From Deltaproteobacteria bacterium (GTDB lineage: Bacteria > Myxococcota_A > UBA9160 > PR03): a DNA stretch of 64,000 nt. This document shows, in pieces, positions 5,598-51,216 of the stretch. Position 1 is the first letter of the stretch. Every line of letters starts with the position of its first letter. The DNA is taken from NCBI GenBank assembly GCA_035063765.1, contig JAPSFT010000012.1, positions 62,001 to 126,000 on the forward strand, in the 5' to 3' direction. The notes under the pieces were generated by a model, which did no database searches, was not told where the DNA came from, and was given only the letters and a program-made list of their open reading frames with translations. Position numbers and translations under genes: made by a program.

Positions 5598-5696
5598 GAG
5601 GGCCAGGCGCTGCGCGCCATGCCCGATGACCCCAGAGGGCCAGGCGCTGCGCGCCATGCCCGATGACCCCAGAGGGCCAGGCGCTGCGCGCCATGC
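5598..5696 (+). repeat. 37-bp tandem repeat, 2.7 copies
   Basis: Three near-perfect units begin at 5598, 5635 and 5672 with period 37. Each starts GAGGGCCAGGCGCTGCGCGC and contains the small hairpin GGCGC-TGC-GCGCC; the third unit ends at 5696 where the sequence diverges. The array fills most of the yidC-jag gap. It reads through in the jag frame, but I place the jag start beyond it. There are no spacers, so it is not a CRISPR. Confidence 0.85.
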
Positions 5697-5724
5697 GTGT
5701 GGGCCCGATGAAGAAGGAGAGGCC

Positions 5725-6711: not shown

Positions 6712-6716
6712 TCCCA

Positions 6717-6826
6717 GTTCCACGTGGAACGTTCCACGTGGAACGACGCGCCCAGGAGCCCCGGATGTTCCACGTGGAACATCGGCCCAGGGCGCGAAGC
6801 CTCACCGTCAGCGTTCCACGTGGAAC
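6717..6826. other. parS: Cluster of four parS centromere sites
   Basis: Four perfect copies of the 14-bp palindrome GTTCCACGTGGAAC lie at 6717-6730, 6731-6744 (directly abutting the first), 6767-6780 (with the full 16-bp form TGTTCCACGTGGAACA at 6766-6781) and 6813-6826. These are the ParB-nucleation sites of chromosome segregation. They lie about 0.7 kb before parA and run into the start of rsmG. Confidence 0.95.
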
Positions 6827-7506
6827 ACGTCGAGCAGACCCCTGCAGCCCGCACGGTCCTCGAGAGCGGCCTGCGCGAGCTGTCGCTGGACGAGGCGTTG
6901 GCCCCTCGGCTCGCAGCCCTGGCCCACCTGCTCGCTCGCTGGGCCTCGCGCATGAACCTGACCGGCCATCGGACACCGGAGGCCATCGCCCGGCGCCTGA
7001 TCCTGGATGCCCTGGCGCTTGGAGCGGCCCTTCCGACGCAGCCCACCTCGCTCGCCGATCTCGGTAGCGGCGCAGGATTCCCGGGCCTTCCGATTGCGAT
7101 CAGCCACCCGAGCTGCAAGGTCCTGCTCGTAGAGGCCCGCGAGCGCCGCCACCACTTCCAGCGCGCGGCAGTGCGAACGATCGGTCTCGTGAACGTCGAG
7201 GCACGGCGCGGGCGCATCGAGGAGATCGAGCCCACGGCCCACCAGGTGGTCGTCGCGCAGGCTCTCGCCCGGCCGATCGAGGCCGTGTCCATGATGCTGC
7301 GCTGGGTCGCCCCAGGCGGGTGGCTGGTGCTGCCGCGAGCGGCCGAGGCGGATCCCCTTCCAGCGATCCCGGGTCTGGAGGACGTTCGCACCACCCGGTA
7401 CGAAGTTCCGGCCGGAGGCCCATCACGATCGCTGTGGGTGGCGCGCAGGCCGCTGGACGCATCGTCCGGGCCTGTGGTACGAACAGGGCGCCCCCCCGAT
7501 CTCTAG
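6820..7506 (+). CDS. rsmG: 16S rRNA m7G527 methyltransferase RsmG
   Basis: SAM-dependent methyltransferase that modifies G527 of 16S rRNA (GidB). Typical features are RWASRMNLTGHRTPEAIARR near residue 40 and the SAM-binding loop LADLGSGAGFPGLP. I start at GTG 6820, giving 228 residues, but this codon lies inside the fourth parS site and has no clear ribosome site. An in-frame GTG at 6724 inside the first site is the alternative, and it would translate parS DNA. It lies in the classical slot before parA. Confidence 0.88.
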   Translation: MEHVEQTPAARTVLESGLRELSLDEALAPRLAALAHLLARWASRMNLTGHRTPEAIARRLILDALALGAALPTQPTSLADLGSGAGFPGLPIAISHPSCKVLLVEARERRHHFQRAAVRTIGLVNVEARRGRIEEIEPTAHQVVVAQALARPIEAVSMMLRWVAPGGWLVLPRAAEADPLPAIPGLEDVRTTRYEVPAGGPSRSLWVARRPLDASSGPVVRTGRPPDL

Positions 7507-44360: not shown

Positions 44361-45349
44361 CGCGCCGGCTCGGCGCGGCGTGTCTGGTGGCGCTGGCCTG
44401 CTGGGCGGCGCCCGCCCGTGCCGACGTGTTCCGTCCTGCCTACCTCGAGCTGCGCGAGGCCGGCGCGGGCCGCTACGACGTGCTCTGGAAGGTCCCCGCG
44501 CAGGGCGAGAGCCTGCGCCTCGCGGCCGAGGTGCGCTTCCCCGAAGGCACCGTCGAGACGAGCCGCGCGCCGGCGCTCTTCGCCGCCGGCGCGCACGTCG
44601 AGCGCTGGCGGATCGAGCGCCCGGGCGGGCTCGTCGGCGAGACCGTCCGCATCGACGGGATCGCGGGCGGCGCCACCGACGTGCTGGTGCGGGTCGAGCG
44701 CGCGGACGGCACGAGCCAGGTCGAGCGCCTGCTGCCGGAACGCCCGCAGTTCACCGTCACGGAGCCGGCCGGGCTCGGCGAGGTGGCGCGCTCCTACCTC
44801 GTGCTCGGCGTCGAGCACATCCTGGGCGGCGTCGACCACCTGCTCTTCGTGCTGGCGCTGCTGCTCCTGGTGCGCGGCGGCCGGCGCATCGTCGCGACCG
44901 TCACCGCCTTCACGGTGGCGCACAGCCTCACGCTCGTGGCGGCGACGCTCGGCTGGGTGCGCGTGCCGACCGCACCGGTCGAGGCCGTGATCGCGCTCAG
45001 CATCGTCTTCGTCGCGGCCGAGGGGGTGCACGGGCTGCGCGGGCGGCCGGGCCTCACGGCGCGCGCGCCGTGGGTCGTCGCCTTCACCTTCGGCCTGCTG
45101 CACGGCCTCGGCTTCGCCGGCGCGCTCGCCGAGGTGGGCCTGCCGCAGCGCGCGATCCCGCTCGCGCTCCTCACCTTCAACGTCGGGGTGGAGGTGGGAC
45201 AGCTCCTCTTCGTCGCCGCCGTCCTCGCGCTGCGCCGCCTGCTCGCCGGCGCGCCGCTCCCGGCGCCGCGCTGGGCCCCCTACCTGCCGCCCTACGCGAT
45301 CGGAGCGCTCGCGACGATGTGGGTCTTCGAGCGGATCGCAGCCTTCTAG
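44357..45349 (+). CDS. HupE/UreJ-like membrane protein
   Basis: 330 residues. Signal peptide (LVALACWAAPARA), an extracytoplasmic domain to about 140, then six membrane segments with metal-type motifs GVEHILGGVDHLLFVLAL, FTVAHSLTLVA and TFGLLHGLGFAGAL. The family is thought to carry nickel or cobalt, and related pairs sit beside PpiC proteins. GTG overlaps the PpiC stop. The stop TAG lies inside the left end of the MITE-like element. Confidence 0.85.
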   Translation: MTRRLGAACLVALACWAAPARADVFRPAYLELREAGAGRYDVLWKVPAQGESLRLAAEVRFPEGTVETSRAPALFAAGAHVERWRIERPGGLVGETVRIDGIAGGATDVLVRVERADGTSQVERLLPERPQFTVTEPAGLGEVARSYLVLGVEHILGGVDHLLFVLALLLLVRGGRRIVATVTAFTVAHSLTLVAATLGWVRVPTAPVEAVIALSIVFVAAEGVHGLRGRPGLTARAPWVVAFTFGLLHGLGFAGALAEVGLPQRAIPLALLTFNVGVEVGQLLFVAAVLALRRLLAGAPLPAPRWAPYLPPYAIGALATMWVFERIAAF

Positions 45350-45543
45350 TGTCCGGTGTCGGAAGTTCGCCGTCGAAGTCTCGAGCCGTCGCGGGCGGCT
45401 GGGTGGGCACCGAGATCGCGGCTACGGGCCGCTCGCAAGGCGCGCGACCGAGCCATGGCCGTCGCCATGGGGAGGGAGCGCAACGCTGCGAGCGGCCCGT
45501 AGCCGCAATCGAATGCAGGCGAGCTTCCGAGACGGGGCACTAG
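45346..45543. mobile_element. MITE-like element, 198 bp
   Basis: Ends are inverted repeats: the left 25 bp (CTAGTGTCCGGTGTCGGAAG and on) matches the complement of the right end (CTAGTGCCCCGTCTCGGAAG and on) at 21 of 25 positions. Inside is a perfect 20-bp inverted pair at 45418-45437 and 45487-45506 (GCGGCTACGGGCCGCTCGCA). No gene is encoded. The stop codons of hupE and of the gene at 45540 lie within the ends. No transposase is seen. Confidence 0.75.
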
Positions 45544-46921: not shown

Positions 46922-46967
46922 ACCGTAGGAGCGGGACACGCTCTGGCGCATCGGCGAAATCGCCTAG
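46922..46967 (-). promoter_or_regulatory. PEP-CTERM gene operator/promoter, copy 1
   Basis: On the minus strand: CTAGGCGATTTCGCCGATGC (46948-46967), 20 bases, then TACGGT (46922-46927), 24 bases before the ATG at 46898. The 20-mer contains GGCGA-TT-TCGCC, centred at about -43. An identical 20-mer stands before the gene at 49762. It begins 8 bp beyond the LuxR-type gene's stop. Confidence 0.75.
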
Positions 46968-46974
46968 GCCGGGC

Positions 46975-49656
46975 TCAGCGGCGGCCCCCTTCGGTCGCGA
47001 CGCGCAGCACCAGCTCGCTGCGACTGTGCAGGGCCAGCTTGCGGAAGATCGCGCGCAGGTGCGCGTCGATCGTGCGCACCGACAGCACGAGCTGCTCGGC
47101 GGCGGCGGCGTTGGTCGCGCCGCGGCCGATCAGCATCGCGACGCGCAGCTCGGCGTCGGTGAGCTGCTGCGCGAGCGAGGAGGCGCCTTCGCCGGCGGCG
47201 CCCGAGAGCGCGCGGGCGCGCGCCGCCCACGGCCGCGCGCCGAGCCGTTCGAAGTTCGCGAGGGCCGTGGCGAGCCCGGCCGCGTGTGCGTCGAGGCGCT
47301 CGTGCTCGACCAGGGCGAGGCGGGTACGCGCCTGCTCGAAGGGCGCGTCGAGTGCGTCGGCGGTGCGGATCGCGTCCTGCGCCGAGCCGCGGCCGAGCAG
47401 GGCGCGGCCACGCGCCGCCACCGCGGCCGCCCAGCGCCCGCCGGTCGCCTCGGCGCTCCGCGCGACGTCGCGCACCACCTCGGCGGCCTCGCTGCGCCGG
47501 CCCGCGCCGAGCAGGGCCTCGATCCAGTCGCCGTGGTACCAGACCACGCCCGGCTCGGCGACGCCGCCGCGCAGGCGGATCTCCCAGACCACGCCCAGCT
47601 CCTCCGCGGCCGTCCTGGGGTCCCCGCGCGCCAGCGCCGCGGCGCCGAGCGCGGCGCGCGCGAAGGCCGTGATGCTCGCGAGGCCGGCGCGCTCGGCGCC
47701 CGCGAGCGCGTGGCGCGCGCGCTGCTCGCAGCCCTCGCCGTCGCCGAGGTGGGCGAGCACGTGCGCGGCGATGCTGTGGCCGAACCCGGGGCGGCCGGCG
47801 TCGCTGTTCTCGGCCAGCGTGATGTCGATCGTGGCACCGGTCAGCGCGTCGAGCCAGCGGCCGCGCCGGAAGTCGAGCTCGGCGAGCAGCGCGCTCGAGA
47901 ACGCCTCCACCGAGGCGATGCCGCGGCGCGCCGCCGAGGCGATCACCGCGCGCAACGCGTGCTCGGCGTCCCCCCAGCGCTCGCGCACGAGCAGCCCGTA
48001 GCCGGCGAGTTGGAGCAGCTCGAGCGCGTCGTCGTCGAGCCTGTCGGGGGCAATGGCCCCGAGCCCCTCGAGGATGCGGATCGCATCGCCCCCGGAGCCG
48101 TCGCCCCGGTGCAGCGCGGCGTAGCCGCGCAGCGCGCGGGCGGCGGTGAGCCGCACGTCGTCGCCGGCCGCAGCCGCCTCGGCGCGCCGGCCGAGCTCGA
48201 GCCCGAGCGTGGCGTCGGCGGCCAGCAGCGCCGCGACCGTCGCCTCGGTGAGCAGCGGCAGCTCGAGCTCCGCCACCCGGTCGCGCACGCGATCCGCCTC
48301 GGCGCGCAGCGCCACGGCGGCGCCCCGCGCGTCCTCGCCGAAGGCGCGGATCTTGTTGCGCAGCAGCACGGCCTCGGCACGCGTGCGCTCGTCGGGAAGC
48401 CGGCCGATCGCGCGATCGAGCAGCGCCGCCGCCGCGCCGCCCATCGCGGCGTCGTGGAACGCGCGCGCCGCCGCGAGCTCGCGCGGCAGCCGGGTGGCGT
48501 CGCTCGCGGAGAGGCGCGCGGCGTCGCTCCAGGCACGCGCCGCCATCGCCGGCAGCCCGCGCGCGGCGCAGCGGCGCGCGAGCGCGTCGAGATCGCTGGC
48601 GATCGTCTCGTCGGCGCGCTCGGCCGCGGCGGCACGGTGCAGGGCCGCCCGGTCCGGGTCGGCGCTGTGATCGGCGAGCGCGCGGTGCACGCGCCGGCGC
48701 ACGGCCGGGCCGACGACGTCGAGCACCGCCGCGCTCCAGAGAGGATGGGAGAGCCGCGGCGGCCCGAGCGCGGCGACCCCCGCCTCCTCGGCGGCCGCGA
48801 GGTCCGCCTCGCGGGCGCCGACGGCAGCCAGCACGTCGGCGAGCCGGTCGCCGCCGCCGGCGCCGGCGGCGAGGACGGCCAGCGCGCGCAGCGTCGCGCC
48901 CGGCAGCGCGGCGAGCCGCGCGGCGAAGACCTCGTGCAGGCGCGCGGGCAGCGTCTCGACGCCGTCGATCGGGCGCTGGCCGCTCCGTTGGTCGGCGCTC
49001 AGCGCGTCGCACAGGTGGAGCAGGGCGAGCGGGTTGCCGCCGGTCAGCTCGATGCAGCGGTCCGCCACGTCTGCGCGCAGCGGCTGGCGCGTGCGCAGGA
49101 GCGCGTGGCACTCGTGGCGGCCGAGCCCACCGAGCGCGAGCCGCCGGGCGCCCGGGAAGCACGGCGGGCACCCGGGGCGTTGCGCCGCCACGATCGCGAC
49201 CGGATCGGCCGCGAGCCGGTGTGCGGCGAACGCGAGCGCTTCGGCGGAGGGCGGATCGAGCCACTGCGTGTCGTCGACCAGCACGAGCAGCGGCGCGCGC
49301 TCGCCCCGGCCCGTGAGCAGTGCGTGCAGGGCGGACCCGGCCGCCACCCGGCTGCGCGGCGCTCCGCCCGCGATCTCGCGCGCGAGCGCCGGCGAGCCGC
49401 CGCGCGGGTGGGCCAGCAGGAGGCTTGCGAGGCCGGCCCAGGCGAGATCCGCCTCGGCCTCGAGCGCCGCGATCCGCACCTGCTCGAAGTCGGGCGCCCG
49501 GCGCGCGACGGCGTCGAGCAGGGTCGTCTTGCCGATCCCGGGCGGGCCCGTGATCACGAGCGTGCCGGCCGTACCCGTGCGCGCGCCCGCGAGCAGCTCG
49601 TCGAGCGCTTCGAGCTCGGGGCCGCGGCCCAGCAGTGCCGGCTCGCCGGAGATCAC
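46975..49656 (-). CDS. Large LuxR-family (LAL-type) ATPase regulator
   Basis: MalT-like regulator of 893 residues: Walker A GPPGIGKTT at 37-45, Walker B LLVLVDDTQWLD, a long helical TPR-like middle (about 300-810), and a C-terminal LuxR helix-turn-helix LTDAELRVAMLIGRGATNAA ... VLSVRTIDAHLRAIFRKL. Such proteins are ATP-gated activators. It lies between two genes with the same operator and is the best candidate to bind it. ATG. Its own control is not visible. Confidence 0.92.
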   Translation of the reverse strand: MISGEPALLGRGPELEALDELLAGARTGTAGTLVITGPPGIGKTTLLDAVARRAPDFEQVRIAALEAEADLAWAGLASLLLAHPRGGSPALAREIAGGAPRSRVAAGSALHALLTGRGERAPLLVLVDDTQWLDPPSAEALAFAAHRLAADPVAIVAAQRPGCPPCFPGARRLALGGLGRHECHALLRTRQPLRADVADRCIELTGGNPLALLHLCDALSADQRSGQRPIDGVETLPARLHEVFAARLAALPGATLRALAVLAAGAGGGDRLADVLAAVGAREADLAAAEEAGVAALGPPRLSHPLWSAAVLDVVGPAVRRRVHRALADHSADPDRAALHRAAAAERADETIASDLDALARRCAARGLPAMAARAWSDAARLSASDATRLPRELAAARAFHDAAMGGAAAALLDRAIGRLPDERTRAEAVLLRNKIRAFGEDARGAAVALRAEADRVRDRVAELELPLLTEATVAALLAADATLGLELGRRAEAAAAGDDVRLTAARALRGYAALHRGDGSGGDAIRILEGLGAIAPDRLDDDALELLQLAGYGLLVRERWGDAEHALRAVIASAARRGIASVEAFSSALLAELDFRRGRWLDALTGATIDITLAENSDAGRPGFGHSIAAHVLAHLGDGEGCEQRARHALAGAERAGLASITAFARAALGAAALARGDPRTAAEELGVVWEIRLRGGVAEPGVVWYHGDWIEALLGAGRRSEAAEVVRDVARSAEATGGRWAAAVAARGRALLGRGSAQDAIRTADALDAPFEQARTRLALVEHERLDAHAAGLATALANFERLGARPWAARARALSGAAGEGASSLAQQLTDAELRVAMLIGRGATNAAAAEQLVLSVRTIDAHLRAIFRKLALHSRSELVLRVATEGGRR

Positions 49657-49761
49657 GGCGGCGCATGGTAGGGGAGGCGGCGAGGGGCAAGCGAGCGGAG
49701 CGAGCGCGCATGCGCAGCCGGGCGAGGTCGATCGCGCTGGTCGGTGCGTGGAACGCGCCGG

Positions 49762-51099
49762 CTACGCGCGCCGCGAGCGCCGCCGGGCCGCGACGGCCAG
49801 GGCGGCGGCCGCCGTGAGTCCGGCGCCCGACACGCCCGGCTCGGGCACCGCCACGAACACGTCGGGCGAGCTGTTCGTGTCGTCCGGGACGAGGTCCGAG
49901 GCGTCCGAGTCGAAGACCATCACGGAGCCGTCGGCGCTGATGCTGCTGTAGGTGGCGGAGACGCCGTTGCCGGGACCGGCGGTCAGCGACGTGCTCAGCT
50001 GGTAGAGCGCGTCCTCTCCGGCGTGGTACAGGAAGGCCTGGGCGTTGCACTGGGCGACGATGTCGCCCCGATCGGAGACGCGCGGACCCTCGCAGCTCGC
50101 CGTGCCCGGCGGCAGCGGCATGTTGGCGGTCACGCCCTGCTCGCGGTCGCGCCGGTAGATCCGGCTGCCGCTCGGACTCGCCACCAGGTTGCTCGAGAAC
50201 GACCGGAAGACGACGAAGCGCCCGCTCGGCGAGATCGCGGCCATGTCCGAGGAGCTGTTCCCGGCCACGCCGGCGCTGCTCTTGCTGACGAGGCTCGTGG
50301 TGCCCGCCTGGCGGTCGCGGACGAAGACGTCCTCGAGCGTGCCGGCATTCGAGCCGTCGATCGAGATCGGCGTGTCCACGGCGAAGGCGACGTAGCGGCC
50401 GTCGGCCGAGATCGCGCTCGGCGAGAGCGCGCGGCTCGGGCCGTCGATCTGGGTGCCGGCGCCAGTCACGCTGACCCGCTCGGGTGTCGAGAAGCCGTCG
50501 TTCTCGTCTGCGACGAAGACGTCGGGCTGTCCGTTGGTGTCGGAGCCCACCAGGTTCGAGGCATGGGACAGGAAGGCCACGAAGCGGCCATTCGCCGAGA
50601 TCGACGCGTTCTGCGAGGCGCCGTTCGGCGCCGCACCGCCGAGGCCGCGGCTGACCAGCAGGGTCTCGAAGCCGAAGGCGCCCCCGCCGAGGGCGACGGT
50701 GCCGCTGTAGAACACGTCCGTCACGTCCGACGTGCCCGAGACGACCAGGTCGTTCGCCAGGGACTGGAATGCGAGCGCGAGCCCGTCCTCGCTGATCGAG
50801 GGCGCCGTGCTGTTGCCGCTGCCGAGCCCGGCGGTCGCGAGCTCGAAGACGTCTTCCTGGAGGTCGTAGCGGTAGACGTTGGTCGAGCCGTTGAAGGGCA
50901 CACCCAGGTTGTCGGAGCTCGACACGAAGGCGACCCAGCGCCCGTCGGGCGAGAGCGAGGGCGCCAGCGCGCCGTCGCCGAGCTGCTCGCCGACGCCGGT
51001 GGTGGTGAGCCGGCCGAGCAGCACGACGTCGGCGCCCGCGGGCGCGGGCACGAGCGCACCCGCAGCGGCGAAGAGCAGCACGAGGAACGCAGGTCGCAT
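49762..51099 (-). CDS. PD40/TolB-type beta-propeller protein with PEP-CTERM tail
   Basis: Secreted propeller, 445 residues. Signal peptide FLVLLFAAAGALVPAPAGAD, then repeated PD40 blades (LSPDGRWVAFVSSSDNLG, ISEDGLALAFQS, ISANGRFVAFLSHASNLVG, ISADGRYVAFAV, ISPSGRFVVFRSFSSNLVA, ISADGSVMVFDSDASDLV). The C-terminus VPEPGVSGAGLTAAAALAVA then RRRS is a typical PEP-CTERM sorting signal. ATG 51099 lies 22 bp beyond a -10 box of the shared operator. Confidence 0.85.
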   Translation of the reverse strand: MRPAFLVLLFAAAGALVPAPAGADVVLLGRLTTTGVGEQLGDGALAPSLSPDGRWVAFVSSSDNLGVPFNGSTNVYRYDLQEDVFELATAGLGSGNSTAPSISEDGLALAFQSLANDLVVSGTSDVTDVFYSGTVALGGGAFGFETLLVSRGLGGAAPNGASQNASISANGRFVAFLSHASNLVGSDTNGQPDVFVADENDGFSTPERVSVTGAGTQIDGPSRALSPSAISADGRYVAFAVDTPISIDGSNAGTLEDVFVRDRQAGTTSLVSKSSAGVAGNSSSDMAAISPSGRFVVFRSFSSNLVASPSGSRIYRRDREQGVTANMPLPPGTASCEGPRVSDRGDIVAQCNAQAFLYHAGEDALYQLSTSLTAGPGNGVSATYSSISADGSVMVFDSDASDLVPDDTNSSPDVFVAVPEPGVSGAGLTAAAALAVAARRRSRRA

Positions 51100-51121
51100 C
51101 GCGAGGACCCCCTCGCGATCG

Positions 51122-51167
51122 AGGCTAGGTGTACGCCCCGCGCGGCCGCATCGGCGAAATCGCCTAG
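51122..51167 (-). promoter_or_regulatory. PEP-CTERM gene operator/promoter, copy 2
   Basis: Identical 20-mer CTAGGCGATTTCGCCGATGC (51148-51167), exactly 20 bases, then TAGCCT (51122-51127) on the minus strand, 22 bases before the ATG at 51099. Architecture equals copy 1 base for base in spacing. Its left end abuts repeat B. Confidence 0.75.
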
Positions 51168-51216
51168 AACCCATCTCCTGAACCCCGGACGGGAGCGGGT
51201 TCACGAGATGGGTTCT
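51166..51216. repeat. REP-like hairpin B
   Basis: Arms 51166-51185 (AGAACCCATCTCCTGAACCC) and 51197-51216, with one C-C mismatch and the 11-nt loop CGGACGGGAGC. It has the same plan as copy A at 41076. It lies between divergent promoters, so it is not a terminator. Confidence 0.75.

Follow-up and report, generated by a model that had tools for sequence, protein, structure and literature searches.

An identical 20-base sequence that precedes two unrelated secreted-protein genes is probably the operator of the regulator encoded between them, and a class II activator site for both genes. In the window, the 64,000-nucleotide stretch of DNA that was analyzed, a search with CTAGGCGATTTCGCCGATGC located it at 46948-46967 (operator A, before a gene for a beta-helix protein) and at 51148-51167 (operator B, before a gene for a PD40 protein), on the minus strand in both cases. 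This bears out the preliminary description, which had reported one identical 20-mer at these two minus-strand positions. The exact identity covers 21 bases (46947-46967 and 51147-51167). The two exact copies lie 4.2 kb apart and flank the gene for a large ATP-binding LuxR-family (LAL) regulator, LAL1. No further match with up to three mismatches was present in the window, and 100 shuffles also gave none. When the whole genome (4,415,927 bases) was scanned, the two exact copies were joined by two hits with three mismatches. The statement that no similar box precedes other genes therefore holds inside the window, but not genome-wide, as a diverged copy was found on contig C5. The inner symmetry of the element is imperfect, with 12 of 16 positions symmetric in TAGGCGATTTCGCCGA.

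The order on the minus strand is operator B, the PD40 gene (51099-49762), LAL1 (49656-46975), operator A, and the beta-helix gene (46898-45540). LAL1 (893 aa) carries an N-terminal AAA_16 ATPase domain (E 9.2e-18), with the motif GPPGIGKTT, and a C-terminal GerE helix-turn-helix (HTH) at residues 831-884 (E 7.2e-10). The gene that follows operator B encodes a secreted PD40 beta-propeller of 445 aa with a sub-threshold PEP-CTERM-like tail. It is separated from LAL1 by a 105-base gap on the same strand, and the two genes are possibly cotranscribed. The gene that follows operator A encodes a secreted right-handed beta-helix/choice-of-anchor Q protein, which starts at either ATG 46898 or GTG 46757. 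The ATG has a good purine-rich Shine-Dalgarno sequence. However, the start is uncertain because both the signal peptide, which is internal, and the homology begin ~45-60 codons past this ATG, with homologues aligning only from residue 43 or 62. The two secreted proteins showed no significant similarity when compared, in agreement with the earlier claim that they are unrelated.

The region is flanked by genes for an acyl-CoA dehydrogenase and an acyl-CoA synthetase, which are ~10 kb apart here and ~1.4 kb apart in two related genomes, G002 and G005. This difference places the module in a variable stretch. A near-perfect 51-base hairpin (51166-51216; arms of 12 + 7 base pairs, no T-run) abuts operator B on the side of the acyl-CoA synthetase gene; the RNA fold of this region has a z-score of -3.9. 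At the other end, a MITE-like element of ~198 bases (45346-45543) has terminal inverted repeats starting with CTAGTGTCC and a strong internal inverted repeat. The same-genus genome G001 contains some ten related copies of this element, full-length or partial, at 82-88% identity.

The promoter geometry is the same at both operators. Exactly 20 bases after each of them stands a -10-like hexamer on the minus strand, TACGGT after operator A (46922-46927) and TAGCCT after operator B (51122-51127), and this is the sole TANNNT within the next 90 bases. The pattern is rare in the window, with a frequency of 3.3e-4 per position at 75% GC. The hexamers are followed by the ATG after 23 and 22 bases, respectively, so that the proposed arrangement of exactly 20 bases to TANNNT and 22-24 bases from there to the start codon was confirmed. 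If the -10-like hexamer is assigned to -12 to -7, the operator extends from -52 to -33, with its centre at -42.5, which supports the earlier placement of the centre close to -43. A centre near -42.5, overlapping the -35 region, is the class II activation geometry of LuxR-class proteins. No sigma-70 consensus promoter with -35 and -10 elements was found near the operators, and no -35 element was recognisable, as expected for activator-dependent promoters.

A second locus of the same genome, on contig C5, encodes a paralogue of LAL1 (LAL2, 63%). The HTH domains of the two regulators are identical at 45 of 56 positions, and their recognition helices are nearly the same. A copy of the operator with three mismatches (C5:24586-24605) lies ~70 bases from the LAL2 start, between LAL2 and a divergently oriented gene whose product is a secreted PKD/PD40 protein of 1461 residues. 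No TANNNT was found 20 bases from this site toward the PKD/PD40 gene. The sole TANNNT near it, TAGACT, overlaps the operator edge and faces LAL2. Given this arrangement, the C5 site may work differently, be repressive, or be decaying.

The element is also conserved outside this genus. G002 belongs to the same family but to another genus. Its PD40 orthologue (77% identical) is preceded by CTAGGCGATTCCGCCGATGT, which has two mismatches (18/20 positions retained). Exactly 20 bases further follows TAGCGT, again the sole TANNNT within 90 bases; the 20-base spacing is thus found at three of the four sites, one of them in another genus. The distance from the operator to the ATG differs in G002 (~73 bases), which indicates that the operator-to--10 geometry alone is conserved. 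The PD40 orthologue keeps its operator despite having different neighbouring genes. The LAL gene of G002 runs off the end of a contig and does not adjoin the operator in the assembly. Across the four sites, the left half CTAGGCGATT is invariant, whereas the right half varies and is poorly conserved; accordingly, 12 of the 16 inner positions are symmetric in operators A and B, 10 in the G002 site, and 8 in the C5 site.

A degenerate 17-position core, CTAGGCGATTNCNCCGA, was loosened after the C5 and G002 copies had been seen so that it takes in all four sites; its weight therefore rests on the absence of other hits. Among 80 genomes of the order it had four occurrences, at operators A and B and at the C5 and G002 copies only, and the reversed core used as a control had no occurrences in the same 80 genomes. 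Close relatives of LAL1 and LAL2 (≥63%) were confined to G000, G002 and G005 among the genomes compared, so that the presence of the regulator and that of the site nearly coincide. G005 has a LAL1 relative, and the operator was not found in its 67%-complete assembly. The same-genus genome G001 had no close LAL1 relative, PD40 orthologue or operator. A wider scan of public genomes with a LAL alignment gave strong matches only to G002-like and G005-like contigs, from metagenome-assembled genomes labelled Proteobacteria and Myxococcota, and one weak Variovorax match besides. Looser searches were less telling. Matches with three mismatches were many among 98 relatives; they were taken as a class, not individually by position, and judged uninformative because most genomes have them. 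Their likely source is GGCGA/TCGCC words in coding repeats. The exact 16-mer had 27 hits in viral contigs, which were given little weight since a 16-base pattern yields chance matches in so large a collection. A plasmid search with the 121-base region returned no match. Taken at the sequence level, the conservation suggests that the element functions as an operator.

Homologues of the PKD/PD40 gene on C5 are paired with other regulators in the relatives. The G005 orthologue (75%) stands opposite another LAL regulator, whose diverged HTH shares 21 of 56 positions with that of LAL1, and a more distant G002 homologue (36%) faces a 509-aa protein with two GerE matches. No operator was found upstream of either homologue with up to five mismatches allowed. 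Thus, the three related genomes pair their PKD/PD40 homologues with different regulators: LAL2, another LAL, and a double-HTH protein. Of these, only the LAL1/2 type is accompanied by the operator. It follows that the operator goes with this type of regulator and not with the PD40 gene as such. The G005 case looks as if regulator and operator had been exchanged together. Homologous secreted PKD/PD40 genes, paired divergently with different LuxR-type regulators, were seen at L191:2428-7699 and L190:1-7104. It is a doubtful idea that secreted PD40/PKD propellers form modules with exchangeable GerE-type regulators, in which the surface protein may do more than serve as a target, for instance by forming part of the regulator's input.

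The preliminary description had linked the shared element to PEP-CTERM-like tails on both proteins. The tail of the PD40 protein is a near miss (16.7 bits, with a PEP-CTERM cut-off of 20.7; its orthologue reached 19.2), but the beta-helix tail had no PF07589 hit and gave only sub-threshold PVV-CTERM and MYXO-CTERM matches. The genome encodes three exosortases and at least 18 PEP-CTERM proteins above the Pfam cut-off. The whole-genome scan placed no copy of the 20-mer near these at least 18 clear PEP-CTERM genes, and a PEP-CTERM-wide regulon was therefore rejected. The anticipated concentration of hits before PEP-CTERM genes thus did not materialise, while the narrower claim, that the site neighbours LuxR-type regulators, stood. 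Nearness to the regulator, not the PEP-CTERM tail, defines the putative regulon. Control by the sigma-54-dependent system of PEP-CTERM genes with PrsR was likewise rejected: a -24/-12 site was absent upstream of both genes, and sigma-54-like matches in the window were at chance level (54 vs 58 expected), with none in front of either gene.

In the mechanism that we propose, the GerE-type HTH dimer of LAL1 would bind the imperfect inverted repeat TAGGCGA-TT-TCGCCGA. The promoters carry a TANNNT -10 element and lack a recognisable -35; bound LAL1, centred at ~-42.5, would overlap their -35 region and recruit RNA polymerase (class II activation), so that the PD40 beta-propeller and the beta-helix protein are expressed. 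The gene order PD40-LAL1 would make LAL1 autoregulated if these two genes are cotranscribed. LAL1 binding, activation rather than repression, and autoregulation are all predictions from sequence. The proposed tie between the shared operator and the LuxR-class protein encoded at 46975-49656 is supported by the conservation of the site beside the paralogue and at the G002 PD40 orthologue.

The element could instead be a genuine operator of another transcription factor encoded elsewhere, with LAL1 a mere neighbour. Neighbourhood does not prove binding, and in the G002 assembly no LAL gene adjoins the site; however, all three sites in the window's genome adjoin LAL1 or LAL2, the site and close LAL relatives nearly coincide across the 80 genomes, and the form of the site suits a GerE-type dimer, which makes this explanation somewhat unlikely. 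We also regard it as unlikely that LAL1 and LAL2 bind the site as repressors or auto-repressors and not as class II activators. The site of C5, where the only nearby TANNNT (TAGACT) runs into the edge of the operator and is oriented toward LAL2, would fit such a role, and a Streptomyces LAL regulator represses and binds its own promoter (PMC9628970). In contrast, at operators A and B and at the G002 site the element lies upstream of the -10 hexamer, at a constant distance that suits an activator, and no -35 is seen.

Two further explanations were considered. The identity could stem from a stretch of promoter that was copied recently (gene conversion) and has no regulatory meaning, and the two spacers do agree at 11 of 20 positions, where ~6 are expected. 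Yet the operator is identical at 20 of 20 positions while the spacer and the -10 hexamer have diverged, and the orthologous site in the other genus keeps 18/20 positions together with the spacing; given this G002 site in particular, gene conversion is very unlikely. Still harder to credit are readings of the element as a mobile repeat or as a hairpin or terminator in RNA (GGCG-ATTT-CGCC). The short inverted repeat and the position of site A after the LAL1 end are in keeping with them, but no intrinsic terminator with a T-run and no Rfam match were found, no compensatory changes accompany the broken stem at C5 or the shortened one in G002, and the copies are few, with no flanking repeat beyond the site.

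The closest known systems include the operators of PAS-LuxR regulators (PimM type), CTVGGGAWWTCCCBAG, which are bound by a GerE-type HTH and lie in the -35 regions of target promoters (PMC9774167). The present site can be written CTAGG(C)GA-TT-TC(G)CC and shares with this 16-base palindrome-like sequence the CT-N-GG element, the central A/T pair, the location in the -35 region, and the proposed association with a GerE-type HTH. It differs in having one more base per arm (CTAGGCGA-TT-TCGCCGA), a degenerate right half, and a LAL protein as the candidate binder. LAL regulators of the MalT/SCO6993 type share with LAL1 the AAA/STAND ATPase and the C-terminal GerE HTH, and known members are pathway-specific or autoregulating, some with palindromic sites (PMC9628970, PMC3282765). 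However, MalT uses short GGA[TG]GA boxes, and the SCO6993 sites gave no consensus (PMC9628970, PMC3282765), whereas the four sites described here agree closely. ComA/NarL operators are also inverted repeats bound by a GerE/NarL HTH dimer, with a better conserved first half-site, but their binders are response regulators and their hexamer elements have another sequence (PMC4797271). The control motif of most proteobacterial PEP-CTERM genes combines a PrsR box with a sigma-54 -24/-12 site (Haft et al. 2006, PMC1569441). This motif, too, is conserved upstream of genes, in its case those for secreted proteins of the exosortase type. Unlike it, the present element is combined with a TANNNT -10 hexamer and a LAL neighbour and precedes two genes, and sigma-54-like matches are not enriched in the window.

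Two other features of the window were recorded. Four parS-like sites (TGTTCCACGTGGAACA, 0-2 mismatches) cluster at 6716-6827, at the start of an rsmG-like gene and upstream of parA/parB-like genes; this cluster is probably near the replication origin. A tandem 37-base direct repeat with two to three copies (5598-5700) lies around the point where a yidC-like gene ends and a jag-like gene follows.

LAL regulators are common, and few of them have a defined operator. The two paralogues described here, with a likely site, a fixed promoter geometry, and an apparent natural exchange of regulator and operator that is visible from sequence, offer a testable pair in a lineage known chiefly through metagenome assemblies. 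They also suggest that surface beta-propeller proteins may be controlled by a route other than PrsR/sigma-54, the control known for exosortase-type proteins.
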